Below the pieces are notes generated by a model, which was given only the letters and a program-made list of their open reading frames with translations, ran no database searches and was not told the DNA's origin. This document shows positions 26,077 through 33,864 of a stretch of DNA of 61,694 bases, piece after piece. Position numbers and translations under genes: made by a program. How positions within the stretch are numbered: position 1 is the first letter of the stretch; every line of letters starts with the position of its first letter. The stretch covers positions 1-61,694 of the forward strand of contig JAFGSI010000051.1 of the NCBI GenBank assembly GCA_016934715.1, in the 5' to 3' direction. Source of the DNA: Anaerolineales bacterium (GTDB lineage Bacteria; Chloroflexota; Anaerolineae; Anaerolineales; Villigracilaceae).

Positions 26077-27906
26077 TTACTTGATGACCGGCACCACCTC
26101 TGGGACAGCCACGCCGTAGGCCTTTTCCTTCTCGACCTTGAACTGCTGGGTGTACAGGCGATAGTAATGGCCGTGAGACTTGAGCAGTTCGGCGTGCGTA
26201 CCCATCTCGGCGATCCGACCGTCTTCGATGACCACGATGCGATCCGCCCTGCGGATGGTGCTCAGGCGGTGGGCGATGATGAAGGACGTACGGTCCGCCA
26301 TCAGGGCCTCCATGCCGCGCTGGATCAGGGCCTCGGTCAATGTGTCGACGCTCGAGGTGGCTTCGTCCATGATGAAGATCTCAGGCTTGGCCAGCACGGC
26401 CCGCGCCAGGCTGATGAGTTGTTTCTGCCCGACCGAGAGCTGGTTGCCGCCTTCGCCGACATCCTGGGCGTACCCTTTCTCGAAGGTCGTGATGAAGTCA
26501 TGGGCGCCGGCGATCCTGGCGGCCGCCTCGACATCTTCGTCGCTGGCGTCCAGCCGCCCGTAGCGGATGTTCTCACGGATCGAACCGGAGAACAGGTGCG
26601 GGGTCTGGAGCACGATACCGACCCGCGAGTGGATGCTTTGCAGGGTGTAGTCGGTATAGTCGCGTCCGTTGATGCGGATCACGCCGGCCTTCGGCTCATA
26701 GAAGCGGCACAGCAGGTTGACGATGGTCGTCTTGCCGCCGCCGGTTGGACCGACCAGGGCGATCATCTCGCCCGGTCGGACCTTGAGCGACAGGTCGGTC
26801 AGGACCGGTTTGCGGTCCTCGTAGTAGAAGTCGACGTGATCGAATTCGATCTCGCCCTGGATTGTCTCTGCCATTATCGCATCAGCCCGGTTCTGGACCT
26901 CTGGCTGGGTGTCGAGCAGCTTGAAGATCCGTTCAGCCGAGGCGATCGAGTGCTGCATTTCGGCGTAGACGCGCGCCAGGTCCTGGATTGGCCAGATCAT
27001 GAAGGTCAGGTAGGAGACAAAGGCGTGGATGTTGCCGACCGAGAATCCAGCGGTAACAGATTCAAGGCCGCCGTACCAGACGATGGCGCCTAACGCAAAG
27101 GCCGAGATGATCTGCACGGTTGGCAGGAAGAGCGCCGAAAGCCAGGCCGCCCGGTAGGAGGCGCTGTACATATTGTCCGTCAGGACCGAGAACTCATTCA
27201 GGTTCTCGTCCTCGCGGCCGAGGGCCTTGACCACGCGAACGCCCTGGATGTTCTGGTTGTACTCGCCGGTGATCTTCGAGTTGGCCCGTCGCGACTTGCG
27301 GAACTCGACCAGGATCTTTTTGCGGAAGTTCACGGCAATGATCAGCAGTATCGGGATGATGCCGAAGACGATCAGGGCCAGCTTCCAGTTGATCAGCAGC
27401 ATGAAGATGGTTGACGAGATCACGCTGACGATCGCCCAGGTCACATCCAGCAGGCCCCAGGTCATCAGGCTCGAGACCCGCCCCGTGTCCGATGTGACCC
27501 GCGCCATCAGCCGGCCAACGGCGTTCTGGCTGTAGTAGGACAGTGATAGGTTCTGCAGGTGTTCAAAAACTGCCTTGCGCAGGTCATACTGGATGCGCTC
27601 ACCAAGCACGCCAGCCAGGTAGATGAAACCGAAGACCAGTGCCGCCTGGACCAGCTGTAATCCACCGTAATACGTAGCAAAGCGCACCAGCAGCGGGATG
27701 CTGCGGCTGGCGATACCCTCGTCGATGATTGCCCGGTTGATGTAGGTGAACAGGGCGTCCAGACCGGCGGTCAGGGCGATGGTGAACAGGAAGCCGACCA
27801 TCCAACGCCAGTGCGGCCTGAGCAGCCCGAGGATGCGCTTGAACGTTGGGGCGGTCAGTTGACTGGTGTGTTCTTCTTCTTCGAGTTCGATGAGTTCTGC
27901 GGACAT
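26077..27906 (-). CDS. Heterodimeric ABC exporter half-transporter, catalytic subunit
   Basis: This 609-residue protein has a cytoplasmic N-terminal extension of about 35 residues, six membrane helices and a nucleotide-binding domain. The Walker A is G-P-T-G-G-G-K-T-T, the signature is the variant L-S-V-G-Q, and the Walker B carries catalytic Glu515 (M-D-E-A-T-S-S-V-D). As in the first pair, the subunit with the catalytic Glu has the altered signature. It is the second gene of its operon, 45 bases after its partner, and ends at a strong terminator. A BmrD/TM288-like role in drug export is likely. Confidence 0.93.
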   Translation of the reverse strand: MSAELIELEEEEHTSQLTAPTFKRILGLLRPHWRWMVGFLFTIALTAGLDALFTYINRAIIDEGIASRSIPLLVRFATYYGGLQLVQAALVFGFIYLAGVLGERIQYDLRKAVFEHLQNLSLSYYSQNAVGRLMARVTSDTGRVSSLMTWGLLDVTWAIVSVISSTIFMLLINWKLALIVFGIIPILLIIAVNFRKKILVEFRKSRRANSKITGEYNQNIQGVRVVKALGREDENLNEFSVLTDNMYSASYRAAWLSALFLPTVQIISAFALGAIVWYGGLESVTAGFSVGNIHAFVSYLTFMIWPIQDLARVYAEMQHSIASAERIFKLLDTQPEVQNRADAIMAETIQGEIEFDHVDFYYEDRKPVLTDLSLKVRPGEMIALVGPTGGGKTTIVNLLCRFYEPKAGVIRINGRDYTDYTLQSIHSRVGIVLQTPHLFSGSIRENIRYGRLDASDEDVEAAARIAGAHDFITTFEKGYAQDVGEGGNQLSVGQKQLISLARAVLAKPEIFIMDEATSSVDTLTEALIQRGMEALMADRTSFIIAHRLSTIRRADRIVVIEDGRIAEMGTHAELLKSHGHYYRLYTQQFKVEKEKAYGVAVPEVVPVIK

Positions 27907-27951
27907 GCTGTATCTCCCGTGGGGCGGGATGGCTCCCGCCCCACATAGTAT

Positions 27952-29787
27952 TTATTGTGCGGACGAAATCTCTTCTTCCAGTTCCGTATCGATGCGGGTC
28001 TGGATGTCGAAGATCTGCCGGTACATGCCGTCCTGGGCCACCAGATCTTTGTGCTGGCCCATCTGGACGATCGAGCCCTTGTCCATGACCAGGATCAGGT
28101 CAGCATTCATGACCGACTGGATGCGGTGGGCGATAATGAAGGTCGTGCGGTTCTCCATGAGCCGATTCAGGGCAGCCCGTATCTCGGCCTCGGTCTCGGT
28201 GTCGACCGAGGAGGTCGAGTCGTCGAGGATCAGGATGCGCGGGTTCTTAAGCAGGGTGCGGGCGATGGCCACGCGCTGCTTCTGGCCACCAGAGAGGGTC
28301 ACGCCCTTCTCGCCGACCAGGGTTCTGTACCCGTCGGGGAAGCCCTGGATCACGTCGTGGATCGCGGCTGCCTGGGCGGCGCGTTCGACCTCCTCGTCCG
28401 AGACCTGTCGGCCGACGCCGTAGCTGATGTTCTCGCGGATCGAGCGGCTGAACAGGAACGGTTCCTGTTCGACGATGCCTATCTGTTGGCGTAGGATCTC
28501 ACGTGGATATTCCTTCAGTTCCTCGCCGTCGAGCAGGATGCGCCCGTCAGTGTACTCGTGGAACCTCGGCAGCAGGTTGACCAGGGTGGTCTTGCCTGAA
28601 CCGGTCGAGCCCAAGAGCGCCACCGATTGTCCAGGCCGGACATGGAAGGTGATCTCTTTGAGCACATCAGTGTTGCCATCCTCGAACTGGAACGAAACGT
28701 TCTCAAAGACCAGATCGCCGCGCACCGAGCCTGATGGGTAGATCGTACCGTCGGTCAAAGGCTCGCGCTCCTGTTTGACGATCTCCATCAGGCGTTCGTA
28801 GGAGACCAGGCCAGTCGAGGTGTTGACGATGATCCGGCCGAGGTTGCGCATCGGCCAGATCAACCAGACCACCAGCCCGACATAGGCCGGATAGGTACCG
28901 ATGGTGATCTCACCATTGATGGCAAGCACGGCCGCGAAGATGAAGCCGCCCAGCATCTGGAAACCGCACAGGATGTCGGACAGCGGCCAGAAGAGCGAAT
29001 GCATGCGCAGGAGCTTCCTGCCGCGCAGGAATTTCTCCCAGTTATCCTTCTCAAACTTGTCCGTCTCGTAGCCCTGGCGGGCGAAGGCCTTGACCACCCG
29101 CACGCCGGTCAGGTTTTCCTGAAGGGTCGTCGAGAGCTTGGCTTCCTGCTCCTGGTAGGCCTCGTAGGCCTGCGTGACCCGCTTGAAGAACCAGACCGAG
29201 ACGACCAGGATGATCGGGATGACGATCACGGAGGCCAGGGCCAGCTTCCAGCTTAACTGCCAGATGGCGACGAAGTTGATCAGGAAGAGCAGGAAGATAC
29301 GGCCGACGCCGATAGCCTGGTCGTTGAAGAAGGTCCGGACCGAGTCAACATCGGAGGTGACGCGCTCGATCAGGTCGCCGGTGGGGGTCCGGCTGTGATA
29401 GGCGAAGGATAGGCGCTGGATGTGGTCGAAGAGGAAATTGCGCAGACGACGGGTGATCCCCTCTGCTGCGTAGGATGCCAGCCGGCCGGAAACGAATGCG
29501 AATCCGCCCTCGACGGTGGCCAGACCGACGAATCCAAGCGCGATCCAGACCAGGGTGCGGGTCAGCGTACCGGCGAACGGCTCGAGGTTCCCGACCACCG
29601 TATCCGCGAAGTTGCGTAGCAGCAGGTAGGTCAGGGTCTTCGAAAGAGCCGAAACGGCCAGGGACAGGTTGGCAGCCAGATAGGCCAGCCGATAGTCGGC
29701 CATCATCCGCCACAGGCCGACCAGTTTCTTCTTGGTCTGCGCCCTGCGGAAGTCAAAATATGTTGAAGGAGGGGCAATGGTAGCCAT
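27952..29787 (-). CDS. Heterodimeric ABC exporter half-transporter, degenerate-site subunit
   Basis: This 611-residue half-transporter has six membrane helices and a nucleotide-binding domain with Walker A near 400 (G-S-T-G-S-G-K-T-T) and canonical L-S-G-G-Q. The catalytic position is Asp523 instead of Glu (I-L-D-D-S-T-S-S-V-D). It corresponds to the BmrC/TM287 type of subunit. An AGGA lies six bases before the ATG. The gene is preceded by a leader ORF, a potential antiterminator and an intrinsic terminator, so its expression is probably set by transcription attenuation. Confidence 0.93.
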   Translation of the reverse strand: MATIAPPSTYFDFRRAQTKKKLVGLWRMMADYRLAYLAANLSLAVSALSKTLTYLLLRNFADTVVGNLEPFAGTLTRTLVWIALGFVGLATVEGGFAFVSGRLASYAAEGITRRLRNFLFDHIQRLSFAYHSRTPTGDLIERVTSDVDSVRTFFNDQAIGVGRIFLLFLINFVAIWQLSWKLALASVIVIPIILVVSVWFFKRVTQAYEAYQEQEAKLSTTLQENLTGVRVVKAFARQGYETDKFEKDNWEKFLRGRKLLRMHSLFWPLSDILCGFQMLGGFIFAAVLAINGEITIGTYPAYVGLVVWLIWPMRNLGRIIVNTSTGLVSYERLMEIVKQEREPLTDGTIYPSGSVRGDLVFENVSFQFEDGNTDVLKEITFHVRPGQSVALLGSTGSGKTTLVNLLPRFHEYTDGRILLDGEELKEYPREILRQQIGIVEQEPFLFSRSIRENISYGVGRQVSDEEVERAAQAAAIHDVIQGFPDGYRTLVGEKGVTLSGGQKQRVAIARTLLKNPRILILDDSTSSVDTETEAEIRAALNRLMENRTTFIIAHRIQSVMNADLILVMDKGSIVQMGQHKDLVAQDGMYRQIFDIQTRIDTELEEEISSAQ

Positions 29788-29869
29788 ATTTCGTCCTGTC
29801 TCGTAAGTGCGGCTGTTTGTCGCCGCAGCTGCACGACCTACCTAACCAAAGGGTATGGTCCTGCACTCA

Positions 29870-29906
29870 AAGAAAGAAAAACCCACGGGCGGGAGCGCAC
29901 CGTGGG
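29870..29906 (-). terminator. Attenuator terminator upstream of the ABC exporter pair
   Basis: On the minus strand C-C-C-A-C-G-G (29906-29900) pairs perfectly with C-C-G-T-G-G-G (29888-29882) across an 11-base loop. It is followed by a T-rich run (five T, then CTTTCTTT). It lies between the leader ORF and the exporter start, 82 bases before the ATG, so read-through is needed for exporter expression. Confidence 0.75.
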
Positions 29907-29953
29907 GGACACACGAACCTGGGTTGACCGTCACCGGTCAACAGGCGCACTCC
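29892..29953 (-). promoter_or_regulatory. Potential antiterminator and leader-stop hairpin
   Basis: The leader segment GGAGTGCGCC (29953-29944) can pair over ten positions, two of them G-U, with GGTGCGCTCC (29901-29892). The latter is the last two bases of the terminator's 5' arm plus its loop, so the two structures exclude each other. Between them GTTGACCG and CGGTCAAC (29942-29935 with 29930-29923) form a perfect 8-bp hairpin whose four-base loop contains the leader stop codon. A ribosome near the end of the leader would cover the antiterminator strand. Confidence 0.6.
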
Positions 29954-30035
29954 GAGGAGGTGGAATCATGCCAGCTGCATCCGATTTGCGGACGCGCATG
30001 AACATGCTGGTGTCGTTGAGAGAGCGGTTCGTCAT
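29931..30035 (-). CDS. Leader peptide of the ABC exporter attenuator
   Basis: This 34-codon ORF has a strong Shine-Dalgarno (AGGAGG at 30045-30040, four bases before the ATG). The peptide is polar and basic, with no membrane segment, so it is unlikely to work as a protein. Residues 25-27 are three consecutive prolines, a known ribosome-slowing motif. Their CCTCCT is also complementary to the leader's own AGGAGG. The stop codon lies in the loop of a hairpin, and the antiterminator strand covers codons 28-31. The layout resembles bmrB upstream of bmrCD in Bacillus subtilis, though the peptide sequence is not evidently related. The + strand here also has a short ORF (29968-30063), which I rejected. 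Confidence 0.6.
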   Translation of the reverse strand: MTNRSLNDTSMFMRVRKSDAAGMIPPPRSAPVDR

Positions 30036-30072
30036 GATGCCTCCTTCCTTAGGATTTGCTTAGAGCGGACAG

Positions 30073-30101
30073 AGTCTACCCCGGGTTTTCGGTTGTGTCA
30101 A
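30073..30101 (-). promoter_or_regulatory. Promoter of the attenuator leader and ABC exporter operon
   Basis: On the minus strand the -35 is TTGACA (30101-30096) and the -10 is TAGACT (30078-30073), separated by 17 bases. Initiation near 30066 would give a leader of about 280 bases before the exporter start, containing the leader ORF and the attenuator. Confidence 0.75.
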
Positions 30102-30149
30102 GGATTTTGGGGTCCGGGGCCTGCAAAACCCCTCTTCCGAGGGATGGCG

Positions 30150-31568
30150 CTAGGGATTGGTTTCCACGGTTGTGCTCAAGTGGGTCAGGTCGTGGATCCA
30201 CCTGCGTGAAAAATAGCGCCGCAGGCCCAGAAGCCACTTGGCGAACTCCTCCGACATGACCATCAGGTAGACGCCGTGGACCGGCAGGTCCAGGACGAAT
30301 GCCCCCAGGAGGGCCATAGGCACCCCCAGGATCCAGATGATCAGCCCGTCCAGGAAGAGCGAAAAGCGCGTATCCCCGCCACCGCGCAGGATTCCGATGA
30401 TGATGACCATGTTGGTCATGCGCATCCAAAGAAGTGAACCGATGATGGTCAGCAAGCGGTAAGCCGATTCGGCGGCTGCCGGCGAGGCGTTGTACAGGGC
30501 AACGACGGGTGCGCGCGTCAACAGGACCACGGTCCCGACAAGCACTGCCAGGACGGCGCCCAACCCCAGTGAGCGACCGGCGAACTGGTAGGCTTCGTCC
30601 GGTTTGCCGGCTCCGATCTTATTGCCCACCAGGACGGAGGTCGCGCTGGAGATACCCATAAATAACACCAGGGCCAGATTGTCAACCGTTACGGCGATGT
30701 TGATCGCCGCCAGGGCCTCCGTGCCGATGTGCCCGTAGATGGCGTTGTAGGTGGTGATCCCCAGCGACCAGAACAATTCGTTCAGGGCTACCGGCAGAAC
30801 CGGCTTCATGATCCGCCCGAAGAAATCCCGGTCGAAGTGGAGCAGGTCGCGCAGCCTGGCCGCGGCCGGTGAACGGGTGGCATACGTCATGGTCAGGAGG
30901 GCGAAACACTCCAGGATCCGAGAGACGAACGCTGCCCAGGCTGCGCCGACAACGCCCAGTTCGGGCAGGCCAAGACGGCCAAAGATCAGGCCATACGAAA
31001 GCAGGATGTTCAGCCCCAGCGAAGTTACGCTGATGACCATTGGCAGTCTGACGTTGCCGATGCTGCGCAGGACCATCCCGTACGTGAAGGAGATGGAGAA
31101 GAAGACGAAAGACCCGGCGAAGATACGCAGGTAATCGCTGCCCAGGGCTATGACCTGCGGGTCGCTGGAGTAGAGCCCCAGGATCTTGACGGGGATCAGC
31201 TCGGAGAGGGTCACGAAGAAGGTGCTGATTGCCAGGCTCAGCCATAGGGTCAGGGCCAGCACCCGGCGAATGCCGGCCACATCGCGCTTGCCCCACAGTT
31301 GGGCGGTGACCATTGCCGCTCCGCTGACGAAACCGAACAGCACCAGGTTGAAAAGGAAGAAGACCTGGTTGGCCAGCCCGACAGCCGCCATGGCCACGTC
31401 GCCGCGCTGTCCGATCATCACGTACCCGACCATGCCCAGTCCCGAAAAGATCAACTGTTGCAGGGCGATCGGAACGCCGATCTTGAGCAGCTGTCGGAAG
31501 TATTCCGGGTCACGGTAGTAATCGACTGCCCGCTGGGCTCCGGCCAGGATACGATTCAAGAAACCCAC
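30150..31568 (-). CDS. MATE family efflux transporter
   Basis: This protein of about 472 residues has twelve membrane helices in two similar halves, characteristic of MATE (MatE) exporters that expel drugs or metabolites using a Na+ or H+ gradient. Typical stretches are P-I-A-L-Q-Q-L-I-F-S-G-L-G-M-V near 30 and the second-half V-A-L-N-E-L-F-W-S-L-G-I. The start is uncertain: a TTG at 31592 overlaps a TATAAT at 31597-31592. GTG at 31568 and TTG at 31559 both follow an AGAGGAG. I use the GTG, although its spacing is short. It ends 49 bases before the exporter leader promoter. Confidence 0.88.
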   Translation of the reverse strand: MGFLNRILAGAQRAVDYYRDPEYFRQLLKIGVPIALQQLIFSGLGMVGYVMIGQRGDVAMAAVGLANQVFFLFNLVLFGFVSGAAMVTAQLWGKRDVAGIRRVLALTLWLSLAISTFFVTLSELIPVKILGLYSSDPQVIALGSDYLRIFAGSFVFFSISFTYGMVLRSIGNVRLPMVISVTSLGLNILLSYGLIFGRLGLPELGVVGAAWAAFVSRILECFALLTMTYATRSPAAARLRDLLHFDRDFFGRIMKPVLPVALNELFWSLGITTYNAIYGHIGTEALAAINIAVTVDNLALVLFMGISSATSVLVGNKIGAGKPDEAYQFAGRSLGLGAVLAVLVGTVVLLTRAPVVALYNASPAAAESAYRLLTIIGSLLWMRMTNMVIIIGILRGGGDTRFSLFLDGLIIWILGVPMALLGAFVLDLPVHGVYLMVMSEEFAKWLLGLRRYFSRRWIHDLTHLSTTVETNP

Positions 31569-31591
31569 TCTCCTCTCGCGAACAGTCGGCA

Positions 31592-31597
31592 ATTATA
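31592..31597 (-). promoter_or_regulatory. Possible -10 element of the MATE gene
   Basis: A TATAAT on the minus strand lies 24 bases before the GTG start of the MATE gene. No clear -35 was found. If real, it rules out the upstream TTG at 31592 as the start codon. Confidence 0.4.
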
Positions 31598-31660
31598 CAG
31601 GATAACCTGGTCTGGAATGCCTCGGATTTTCACGGTAAAATACGGTCAGCGAGGTGAGGT

Positions 31661-32734
31661 ATGGCAAAGAAGTCTGTTGGCTACGTGGAGCTCGAATGGA
31701 CCTGCAAACGCTGCGGGACCAAAAACCCGGGGACCGAAAAGAGTTGTATCAACTGTGGTGCGCCGATGGGCGCCGACGAGGAGTTCGTTCTCCCCGCGCA
31801 GCAGAAGATCATTGAAGATGAAGCGAAACTCGGAAAAGTCGGCAAGGGGGCCGACACCCACTGTCCCTACTGCGGCACCCGCAATCCGGCCGCGGCGGAA
31901 TCCTGTATCCAGTGTGGCGGTGACCTGCGCGAGGGGGCCGTCCGGCGGAAGGGCAAGATCCTGGGTGCCCACTCGCAGGCCCCGGTCCCCGAGCAGCCGT
32001 GCCCGTACTGCAACCAGCCCAATCCAGAGACCGCCTCGCGCTGCGGCAACTGCGGCGGTGACCTGCGCAAGACGGCTGTGCCGAAGGCGACCGAATCAGC
32101 CACCCGGGCGAAACCCAAACGCGGCCTGGCGATCCTGGGCGCAGTACTGGGAATCCTGTGCCTGTGCGCGGTGGCGGCTTTTTTCATCTTCGCCGCCCAG
32201 ACCAGCGAAATGGTTGGCGTGGTCAGCCGGGTGGAATGGGAGCGCAGTGTCGCCATCCAGGAGTTCCACCCGGTCGAGCGCCAGGACTGGCGCGACCAGA
32301 TCCCCAACGAGGGCGAGATCCTTGCCTGTCAGCAGGAATTGCGCGACACGTCCTCGGTGTACGTGCCAGGGGCCGAGGAGGTTTGCGGCGAACCCTATGT
32401 CGTCGACCAGGGGGACGGGGTGGGGGAGGTGGTCCAGGATTGCACATACTATCTCTACGATGACATGTGCCGCTACGCGATCGAAGAATGGGCAGACGTT
32501 GATCTGGTCACTGTCCGCGGGGCGGACCTGTCGCCGTACTGGCCGGCCTTGAACCTGGGTGGTTACCAGCGCGAGGGCAACCGCAGCGAGACCTACACGG
32601 TCGAGTTCCTGGCTGACGGCCAGACCTACACCTTCCACCCGGACAGCGAATTCTCATTCACCCACTATGTCCCGGGCAGCCAATGGACACTGACCCTGAA
32701 CGGTCTCGGCAACCTGGTCGAAGTCGGGCCGTAA
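31661..32734 (+). CDS. Multi-zinc-ribbon, single-helix membrane protein
   Basis: This 357-residue protein has three cytoplasmic zinc ribbons of CxxC type (first at Cys15/Cys18 with Cys31/Cys34, then about 70-90 and 112-130), each beginning with a C-(K/P)-x-C-x-x-x-N-P pattern as in double-zinc-ribbon and RanBP2-like modules. One membrane helix (about 152-175) follows. The exported C-terminal half (about 180-357) has four or more cysteines and is mostly beta. I do not know the family of this half. GAGGTGAGG precedes the ATG. It is divergent from the MATE gene. Confidence 0.75.
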   Translation: MAKKSVGYVELEWTCKRCGTKNPGTEKSCINCGAPMGADEEFVLPAQQKIIEDEAKLGKVGKGADTHCPYCGTRNPAAAESCIQCGGDLREGAVRRKGKILGAHSQAPVPEQPCPYCNQPNPETASRCGNCGGDLRKTAVPKATESATRAKPKRGLAILGAVLGILCLCAVAAFFIFAAQTSEMVGVVSRVEWERSVAIQEFHPVERQDWRDQIPNEGEILACQQELRDTSSVYVPGAEEVCGEPYVVDQGDGVGEVVQDCTYYLYDDMCRYAIEEWADVDLVTVRGADLSPYWPALNLGGYQREGNRSETYTVEFLADGQTYTFHPDSEFSFTHYVPGSQWTLTLNGLGNLVEVGP

Positions 32735-32859
32735 GTCGATTCTCGGTTCGCGAGTTTTTCGTAATCCAGCAACCGCTTTCTACCTTCCCAGTTTCGCCGA
32801 GCTGGACGAACAGAGCGATTGTCGTATGAACCGGGGGCTCGATCAGTGAGGAGGCTGAG

Positions 32860-33864
32860 ATGAACATCACCGTGCGATTGTTCCTGTCTTTCGTCTTGAT
32901 CGCCATTTTGCCTTTGTCGCTGGTTGGCTTCCTGGGCCTGGCCCAGATGCAGGTCATCAGCCAGCAGACAGTGGATGAGACCACGGCCGCCATGCAGCGC
33001 CTGGGCGAAGAGGCGATCCGGCAGAAAGCGATCGACGTGGCCCGGCAGGTGGCGCTCTATCTGGACGCTCATCCGCAATTGTTGGAGGATCCTGACCGGC
33101 TGATGGCGGACATGGACCTGGCAGAGATCGCAGTCCAGCCGGTGGGGATGACCGGCTATACCGCGGTCTATGATTCAAGCGGGGTGACCTATTTTCACAC
33201 CAACCCGGCCCTGGTTGATGTCAATATGGAGACTCTGGCCCAGGAGTTGCCCGAGTTCTGGGCACTCTTCTCTGCCAGCCTGGATGGCAGTTCCGTCGGT
33301 TCCTATTACGACTGGGCGGATCCGGAAGGCACGATCCGCGAAAAGTACATGTATTGTGTTCCCGTCGGCGAGACCTCACTGAGGGTCGCTGCCACGACCT
33401 ACATCGACGAATTCTCCCAGCCGATCGTACTGACCCAGACCCGGGCTGCCCTGATTCTCGAGAAAAGCAGGTTCCAGTTGCTGCTCTCGCTTCTGCTGGT
33501 GGCCGGCCTGGCTGTTGCCCTGGCGCTCGGATTTTCCGGCACGATCAGCCGTCCGATCCATTCCCTGGTGAACGGTTTCAGGGCGGTCGAGGAGGATGAC
33601 TATCAGGCCATCCGCCTGGAGCGAATCCTTGACCGCAAGGACGAGTTTGGGCGGATGGCGCGGGTCTTCATGGGGATGGCGGACCAGGTGCAAGAGCGCG
33701 TCCAGACGCTCAAGAATCAGGTGGCCTATCTGCGGATCGAGGTGGACGAAGCCAAACGCAGCATCGAGGTCCGCCAGATCACCGAGACGGAGTATTTTCG
33801 GGACCTGACGAAGAAAGCCGATCAGATCCGCAGGCGGCGTTCCTCCGGAAAAAAGAGCGACTGA
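32860..33864 (+). CDS. Cache-like sensor membrane protein with HAMP domain and coiled-coil tail
   Basis: This 334-residue membrane protein has an N-terminal helix (about 7-30), an extracytoplasmic Cache-like domain (about 35-200; V-G-M-T-G-Y-T-A-V-Y-D-S-S-G-V near 95 is a typical PAS/Cache strand set), a second helix (about 208-228) and a HAMP domain (I-S-R-P-I-H-S-L near 233). The last 70 residues are a charged coiled coil. No kinase, cyclase or methyl-accepting domain follows, so it is a sensor without an output domain and must act through a partner. GTGAGGAGG precedes the ATG. Confidence 0.85.
   Translation: MNITVRLFLSFVLIAILPLSLVGFLGLAQMQVISQQTVDETTAAMQRLGEEAIRQKAIDVARQVALYLDAHPQLLEDPDRLMADMDLAEIAVQPVGMTGYTAVYDSSGVTYFHTNPALVDVNMETLAQELPEFWALFSASLDGSSVGSYYDWADPEGTIREKYMYCVPVGETSLRVAATTYIDEFSQPIVLTQTRAALILEKSRFQLLLSLLLVAGLAVALALGFSGTISRPIHSLVNGFRAVEEDDYQAIRLERILDRKDEFGRMARVFMGMADQVQERVQTLKNQVAYLRIEVDEAKRSIEVRQITETEYFRDLTKKADQIRRRRSSGKKSD

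Follow-up and report, generated by a model that had tools for sequence, protein, structure and literature searches.

The leader of an ABC exporter operon has the layout of an attenuator

The window, which is the whole 61,694-nt stretch of DNA analyzed, contains two genes on the reverse strand that each encode one half of an ABC exporter (Table 1). Unlike Walker B motifs usually mark a heterodimer in which one site is degenerate, and the dissimilar motifs of these two halves support the earlier proposal that they would form a heterodimeric exporter. Among relatives of solved structure, both halves were topped by ABCB-type full transporters. Half-transporters were present among these relatives as well, namely TM_0288, 6raf, and, for exporter half 2, YheH, which we take to be BmrD. 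Further upstream lies a MATE efflux gene (31592-30150, reverse strand), which ends around 50 bases upstream of the attenuator promoter on the same strand.

Directly in front of the exporter, a sequence-only reading of the window had listed a promoter, a 34-codon open reading frame with a Shine-Dalgarno sequence, an intrinsic terminator, and a segment able to pair with the terminator over ten positions. Each of these parts was recovered where that reading had placed it, and the attenuator layout upstream of the exporter is confirmed as a real observation. Two promoter-like sites were present in the 1.3 kb scanned, versus 0.2 in shuffled sequences. The terminator (T1) consists of CCCACGG (29906-29900), an 11-nt loop, CCGTGGG (29888-29882), and a T-rich run ending at 29869. 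An automatic terminator scan of the window region found 0 terminators, versus 1.0 in shuffles; as the scan takes loops of 3-8 nt only, T1 was missed, and it was recognized by eye, outside the limits of the scan. The antiterminator strand, P2, can form ten pairs with P3, including two G-U pairs, in a duplex of -20.7 kcal/mol.

Table 1. Features of the exporter leader and of related copies in the same genome.
Feature	Position	Strand	Basis or remark
ABC exporter half 1, TMD-NBD, Walker B ILILDD (degenerate site)	27952..29787	-	sequence
ABC exporter half 2, TMD-NBD, Walker B IFIMDE	26077..27906	-	sequence
Sigma-70-type promoter, TTGACA-17-TAGACT	30073..30101	-	score 10 of 12
Shine-Dalgarno AAGGAAGGAGG of leader ORF	30040..30050	-	strong; without GCGCAC (P1) element
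Leader ORF MTNRSLNDTSMFMRVRKSDAAGMIPPPRSAPVDR, 34 codons	29931..30035	-	stop codon 29933-29931
Arg-Val-Arg, codons 14-16, resembling the R-X-R macrolide stall motif	29988..29996	-	translation
P2 GGAGTGCGCC, antiterminator strand within codons Arg28-Ser-Ala-Pro31	29944..29953	-	pairing and covariation
Hairpin GTTGACCG-GTGA-CGGTCAAC, stop codon in loop region	29923..29942	-	predicted fold
P3 GGTGCGCTCC, partner of P2, end of terminator 5' arm plus loop	29892..29901	-	pairing and covariation
Intrinsic terminator T1, CCCACGG / CCGTGGG plus T-rich tail	29869..29906	-	sequence and fold
Own-genome copy C87, before another ABC exporter gene			strong model match
Own-genome copy C51, before ABC-F			strong model match
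Own-genome copy C1, before GNAT			strong model match

The RNA from leader to terminator folds with a z-score of -3.75 relative to shuffles. Once the terminator is removed, the z-score is only -0.22, so that fold energy is little informative on the leader alone. In the predicted fold of the window leader, the ribosome-binding site (RBS) and start codon are paired with other codons of the leader. An Rfam search of positions 27000-33000 gave two weak matches elsewhere and none over the leader.

Homologous leaders form a family in Anaerolineae

A search with the leader peptide detected relatives in the genus and family of the window, and matches in 27 of 101 genomes at E <= 1; most of the weak matches were rejected as leaders on inspection. 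A DNA search detected a second copy within the same genome. A covariance model was then built from 11 seed sites chosen by eye (the window and 10 relatives), in which the terminator stem was included and the P2 pairing was not. Applied to the window's own genome, this model gave four strong matches: the window and the copies on C87, C51, and C1. The attenuator can thus no longer be regarded as peculiar to the exporter, as three more strong copies precede another ABC exporter gene, an ABC-F gene, and a GNAT gene. Two weak matches lie on C85 (E 0.004) and C35. The former (L039, G000:C85:12161-12246) is a divergent copy before an RsgA gene, with a similar promoter and RBS; its P2 core, AGTGCGCC, is lost, and GGCGCGCC a few codons earlier may substitute for it.

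Across a sample of the class, matches were found in 114 of 396 genomes at E <= 0.01, with at most six per genome. This corresponded to 67 of the 234 good-quality genomes, and to 74 of 222 genera. A sample of 400 genomes of the phylum, of unspecified class composition, contained 34 with matches at E <= 1e-4, all belonging to the same class. Records with names place the family in Anaerolineae/Anaerolineales: a strict pattern search of named genomes gave 33 loci, 26 of which fit the covariance model at E < 1e-13. Of these, 24 were labelled Chloroflexi, Chloroflexota, or Anaerolineae, one Candidatus Desulfolinea (presumably also Anaerolineales), and one Chthonomonas. The remaining seven pattern loci (four from Streptomyces, and one each from Herbaspirillum, Clostridiales, and Bacteroidales) were attributed to chance, with a model E-value of 5e-4 or worse or no match. 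The same pattern had 0 matches in viral contigs, and an Rfam search of 20 relatives gave 0 matches at gathering score.

The Chthonomonas locus (L141, DYKI01000201.1) is a strong copy from a MAG with the label Chthonomonas calidirosea, where it lies on a contig of 4.5 kb. The ABC exporter on this contig is 79% identical to an Anaerolineae exporter. The copy is probably present in this MAG through a binning error, or possibly through transfer.

The analyses below cover 100 sites, comprising the seeds, the own-genome copies, and the better-scoring matches of the class sample; two matches of the same score range (G042:C61 and G399:C119) and the weaker matches fall outside this set. Analyses of the leader itself used 88 of the 100 sites, leaving out L039, L055, and sites with a weak Shine-Dalgarno score. 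L039 was also left out of the permutations of cognate and swapped strands and of the analysis of frame and stop position.

Reading frame and stop position are nearly fixed

Promoters scoring at least 9 of 12 were found upstream of 78 of the 88 leaders, versus 5.6 in shuffles. The leaders are 16-36 codons long and vary in their N-terminal sequence. At the other end they are far more uniform. Of 84 sites, 82 have their best Shine-Dalgarno match ahead of an ATG whose frame translates P2 as R-S-A-P, and the two exceptions, which hold an in-frame RSAP or LSAP, look like shifts of the alignment anchor. Similarly, 97 of 100 sites have a stop codon 6-9 codons past the point where P2 starts, whereas the two alternative frames have one there in 9 and 13. 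Such a near-fixed frame and stop distance would be expected if the ribosome has to be able to come to rest over P2. In the window, P2 lies in codons Arg28-Pro31, which bears out the earlier placement of the competing strand in the last codons of the leader.

The sequence-only reading had further expected the open reading frame to be kept and its peptide not. This was right for the frame and for the variable N-terminus. It did not hold for the C-terminus, where the peptide ends in R-S-A-P-V-D-R or a similar sequence at a nearly fixed position; this end is conserved because P2 is read in that frame. A conserved peptide end would also be expected if the leader peptide acted in trans and the RNA features were secondary, and such a role has been reported for peTrpL of Sinorhizobium (PMC7298713). 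However, R-S-A-P-V-D-R is largely the coding of P2, the bases of which are constrained by pairing, while the remainder of the peptide varies, making a trans-acting peptide extremely unlikely.

The fixed frame also bears on the possibility that the RNA is read by a ligand or protein, in the manner of a riboswitch, with the open reading frame merely a passenger. The conserved alternative stems described below would fit such an element, and a riboswitch missing from Rfam would likewise give no match. It would not, however, preserve the frame (82 of 84) or the stop distance (97 of 100). As no other conserved fold was noticed, and the stretch separating P2 from the terminator varies, we consider a riboswitch-like element highly improbable.

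Compensatory changes support the terminator and antiterminator stems

Over the 940 cells of the P2:P3 pairing, 86.5% were paired, versus 33-71% for slid versions. Seven of the ten pairs had changed on both sides, a number reached by 1 of 500 shuffles, and the 29 individual cells changed on both sides were reached by 0 of 500. At columns 13 and 93, for instance, the pair was seen as GC, GU, UA, AU, CG, and UG. The mean P2:P3 duplex was -19.0, versus -13.9 with shuffled P2. In an alignment of the 100 sites that had been fitted to the T1 stem, 99.9% of the stem's cells were paired and 117 had changed on both sides. Covariation in both stems, which had been put forward as a check of the mechanism, was thus found.

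Cognate P2 and P3 strands also bound each other better than swapped strands, in all of 20,000 permutations over 99 sites (0/20000). This result persisted after dereplication to 65 sites (0/10000) and further to 26 dissimilar sites (3/10000). These data are relevant to a simpler explanation, in which a fixed, unregulated leader and terminator only lower expression, and the complementarity of P2 and P3 reflects nothing more than related sequence. In its favor, the terminator is the structure preferred in the equilibrium fold. The 29 compensatory cells unmatched by shuffles argue against it, as do the better binding of cognate strands even among dissimilar sites and the presence of several copies per genome ahead of defence-like genes. 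We therefore regard a fixed leader as very unlikely.

A second possible partner of P2 was found in many relatives. A GCGCAC-like element, P1, directly follows the Shine-Dalgarno sequence in 61 of 88 leaders and can pair with P2; it is absent from the window copy and from its genus relatives L005 and L006. The mean P1:P2 duplex was -15.8, versus -10.1 with shuffled P2, and cognate strands again bound better than swapped ones (0/20000 over 99 sites; 0/10000 over 56 dereplicated sites; 67/10000 over 24 sites after further dereplication). Of the P1:P2 cells, 76.8% were paired, versus 74.2 +- 0.5 in shuffles and 32-61% in slid versions. The cells changed on both sides numbered 38, versus 18.3 +- 3.4; of 500 shuffles, 87 matched the seven pairs so changed and 136 matched the pair types in number. 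A paired change was seen in L113 and L117, where P2 reads GCGTCC and the RBS GGACGC. The inventory of parts made from the window alone therefore stands for the window, while the relatives add two parts that the window lacks, a possible RBS:P2 pairing and a second terminator.

Taken with the homologous leaders and the near-fixed spacing of frame and stop, the compensatory changes in both stems place the window layout above chance. It is highly probable that the window holds one copy of a Chloroflexota-class family of what would be ribosome-controlled transcription attenuators.

Predicted folding with and without a ribosome

The pairings suggest the following mechanism. RNA polymerase would transcribe the short leader, with the ribosome trailing behind. 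A ribosome reaching the stop codon would cover P2, so that the terminator forms and the exporter stays off. A ribosome held early in the leader would leave P2 free to pair with the emerging 5' arm and loop of the terminator, resulting in readthrough. In the many copies with a P1 element, a further state may exist, in which P2 pairs with the leader's own RBS when no ribosome is present; this state would not apply to the window.

To model the nascent RNA, ensembles were computed for transcripts ending before the 3' arm of the terminator, with the ribosome represented as a mask. Placing the ribosome at the start codon gave a predicted P2:P3 pairing above 0.5 in 86 of 88 sites; the number was 66 with the ribosome at codon 6 and 50 without any. 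With a ribosome at the stop codon this was the case in 0 of 88, by construction, as P2 is then masked. Comparing the start-codon state to the ribosome-free state, P2:P3 pairing was more than 0.1 higher in 52 sites and that much lower in two. P1 was the main partner of P2 in 29 of 88 sites in nascent RNA without a ribosome. For the window, the predicted P2:P3 pairing is 0.81 with a ribosome at the start, 0.84 at codon 6, 0.84 with none, and 0 at the stop. Since the nascent antiterminator is high in all other states, the window copy would be off only with a ribosome at the end of the leader, and an untranslated leader would read through.

For full-length RNA at equilibrium, the terminator exceeded 0.5 in 84 of 88 sites without a ribosome, and in 56, 76, and 84 sites with one at the start, codon 6, and stop, respectively. 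The corresponding numbers for the antiterminator were 4, 23, 8, and 0, and in the window the terminator reached 0.99. Equilibrium folding gave only partial switching across the ribosome states and was rejected as an account of the switch. As full RNA favors the terminator in most sites, the switch must act kinetically, during transcription.

The earlier proposal that ribosome position chooses between terminator and antiterminator is backed by the compensatory pairing and the fixed geometry of frame and stop, and attenuation by ribosome position is, in our judgment, very likely the mode of control.

What the leaders may sense

The layout of a leader open reading frame, alternative stems, and a terminator is shared with attenuators of the trp/his type, in which the leader senses scarcity of one aminoacyl-tRNA. 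The leader peptides, however, contain no run of a single amino acid or repeated regulatory codons. Upstream of RSAP, the most conserved residue is a proline at position -2 (0.70), and the N-termini differ. As the downstream genes are also not those of amino-acid biosynthesis, there is very little to recommend sensing of an amino acid. Instead, slowed translation by ribosome-targeting drugs is probably the main signal.

The peptide of the window offers a candidate site for such sensing. R-L-R is described as a signature of macrolide-sensing leaders (PMC6310831, PMC4335068), and by analogy the Arg-Val-Arg of codons 14-16 may be a macrolide stall site. P2 begins only at codon 28 and would stay exposed if a ribosome stalled at codons 15-16. 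The RVR of the window leader is kept in L005 and L006. Over the family, RXR was found in 14 of 88 leaders, versus 4.6 +- 1.9 in shuffled peptides, and R/K-X-R/K in 18 of 88, versus 10.1 +- 2.6, both counts including related leaders. Since just 14 of 88 leaders have RXR, the family as a whole is not accounted for by any one stall motif, and most leaders, which are without RXR, may sense other drugs.

The region around the stop codon was considered as an additional element. A stop codon inside a hairpin of at least five pairs was found in 45 of 88 sites, versus 29.4 +- 4.3 in shuffles, which was too weak to retain the hairpin as a family-wide feature. A GACC...GGTC hairpin surrounds the stop codon in the window and many exporter copies, and its outer pairs co-vary (TGACC/GGTCA, AGACC/GGTCT).

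A second terminator in about half of the copies

A further hairpin with a T-run, T2, lies within about 140 bases of T1 in 52 of 100 sites, including L036, L037, L068, L104, and L108. T2 is commonest before GNAT and ABC-2 genes; of the 39 exporter sites, 34, among them the window copy, have none. The 5' arm of T2 is complementary to the 3' arm of the T1 ahead of it: T1 3' arms paired with their own T2 5' arms at -16.9 kcal/mol, versus -12.9 when swapped (0/20000). The match held both within family f1 (18 sites; -17.2 versus -15.7, 6/20000) and outside it (34 sites; -16.7 versus -12.2, 0/20000), a division made by hand from peptide and covariance-model searches, and after dereplication to 36 and to 16 sites (0/10000 each). 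With 83 other terminator-like hairpins of the same loci, a set from a mechanical scan that may include false terminators, the T1 3' arm paired at -8.7. Pairing at or below -14 was reached by 41 of the 52 T2 hairpins, versus 6 of these 83.

This complementarity suggests a relay, in which P2 would take the 5' arm of T1, and the freed 3' arm of T1 would then take the 5' arm of T2. A single decision made by ribosome position would so open two successive terminators. In 44 of 52 sites the T1:T2 pairing is weaker than the stem of T2 itself. When P2 and P3 were engaged at equilibrium, T2 fell only from 0.59 to 0.48 and the cross-pairing went from 0.11 to 0.25; the relay would therefore have to be kinetic. 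Alternatively, T2 could be a tandem copy of T1 that serves as insurance. A T2 that cannot open would keep the gene off, however, barring another promoter. We consider the evidence evenly balanced on whether about half of the copies operate a two-terminator relay, within a class-wide ribosome-sensing regulon built on one RNA cassette that sits ahead of many different genes.

Comparison with known systems

Ribosome-mediated transcription attenuation of resistance genes is already known from bmrB, vmlR, rli80, and mef(E). In Bacillus subtilis, translation of the bmrB leader decides termination before bmrCD, which encodes a heterodimeric multidrug ABC exporter; bmrB has 53 codons and an antiterminator and predicted anti-antiterminator, and its terminator lies inside the open reading frame (PMC4191407). 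The window shares with it the proposed control of termination by a leader open reading frame before a heterodimeric ABC exporter, so that its original description as BmrB-like is apt for the control logic. The anatomy is different, as the window's open reading frame stops before the terminator and carries the antiterminator strand in its last codons. Moreover, the Chloroflexota leaders, here compared with bmrB by layout, form a multi-gene family, unlike bmrB.

The vmlR leader of B. subtilis, where stalling on an upstream open reading frame blocks the anti-antiterminator and lets the antiterminator form, controls an ABC-F gene, as 3 of the 100 Chloroflexota copies would. Its upstream open reading frame has three codons and lies within the anti-antiterminator stem (PMC9226507), whereas the Chloroflexota leaders have 16-36 codons and their own RBS as candidate anti-antiterminator. 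The RVR of the window leader resembles the RLR of two other attenuation leaders, rli80 of Listeria hflXr, with a 14-residue peptide and an RLR stall motif (PMC6310831), and that of mef(E)/mel, with the 8-residue MTASMRLR (PMC4335068). These two belong to another phylum and have shorter peptides, and as noted, RXR is confined to a minority of the Chloroflexota leaders.

The logic of a stalled ribosome would be shared with the translational attenuators of ermC and ermB as well, in which a drug-stalled ribosome on the leader alters RNA pairing. These control the translation of a resistance gene, whereas the Chloroflexota family would control an intrinsic terminator.

In the literature searched, switches based on a leader open reading frame for drug-response genes were mostly from Firmicutes, with single cases from Streptomyces, E. 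coli, and Sinorhizobium. No description of such an attenuator family in this lineage was found among the titles and abstract starts listed from the open-access literature searched, and the string "Chloroflex" is absent from the main text of PMC2965389. Those listings yielded no earlier account of the family or its lineage, of an antiterminator strand placed in the final leader codons at a near-constant distance from the stop, of the RBS as candidate anti-antiterminator, or of the proposed two-terminator relay. The candidate RBS:P2 pairing and T2 give testable predictions on how one ribosome could govern one or two terminators.

Genes downstream of the family

The 100 sites precede 39 ABC exporters, 30 GNATs, 11 ABC-2 ATPases, 5 HADs, 4 RsgA, 3 ABC-F, 3 ABC-2 permeases, 2 MFS, and 2 RIO kinases, with 1 site assigned to none. 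This tally counts L131 as GNAT though its first gene encodes a HAD, includes two sites where the GNAT lies further downstream (L059 and L101), and rests on a 21-residue match assigned by hand for L088 and on short matches for L063 and L128. Pfam and NCBIfam scans of representatives backed the GNAT, HAD, RsgA, RIO, and MFS assignments. Their best matches for two further classes were a ribosomal-protection-like ABC-F and a DrrA-like ATPase; the own-genome ABC-F and the DrrA-like ATPase scored under the curated cut-offs. One ABC-F entry was scanned over 469 residues.

Genes for exporting drugs, protecting or maturing ribosomes, and transferring acetyl groups are consistent with a response to hindered translation. 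Some of the downstream genes, such as those for HAD and RIO kinase, have no evident link to resistance. As the family belongs to a class known largely from metagenome bins, it offers a sequence handle on the genes that these bacteria may raise under hindered translation, including functions not yet counted as resistance, such as some GNATs and HADs. In L086, L096, and L131, the copy is followed by a HAD hydrolase gene and then by a gene of 347-354 codons, which has a GNAT match in L131.
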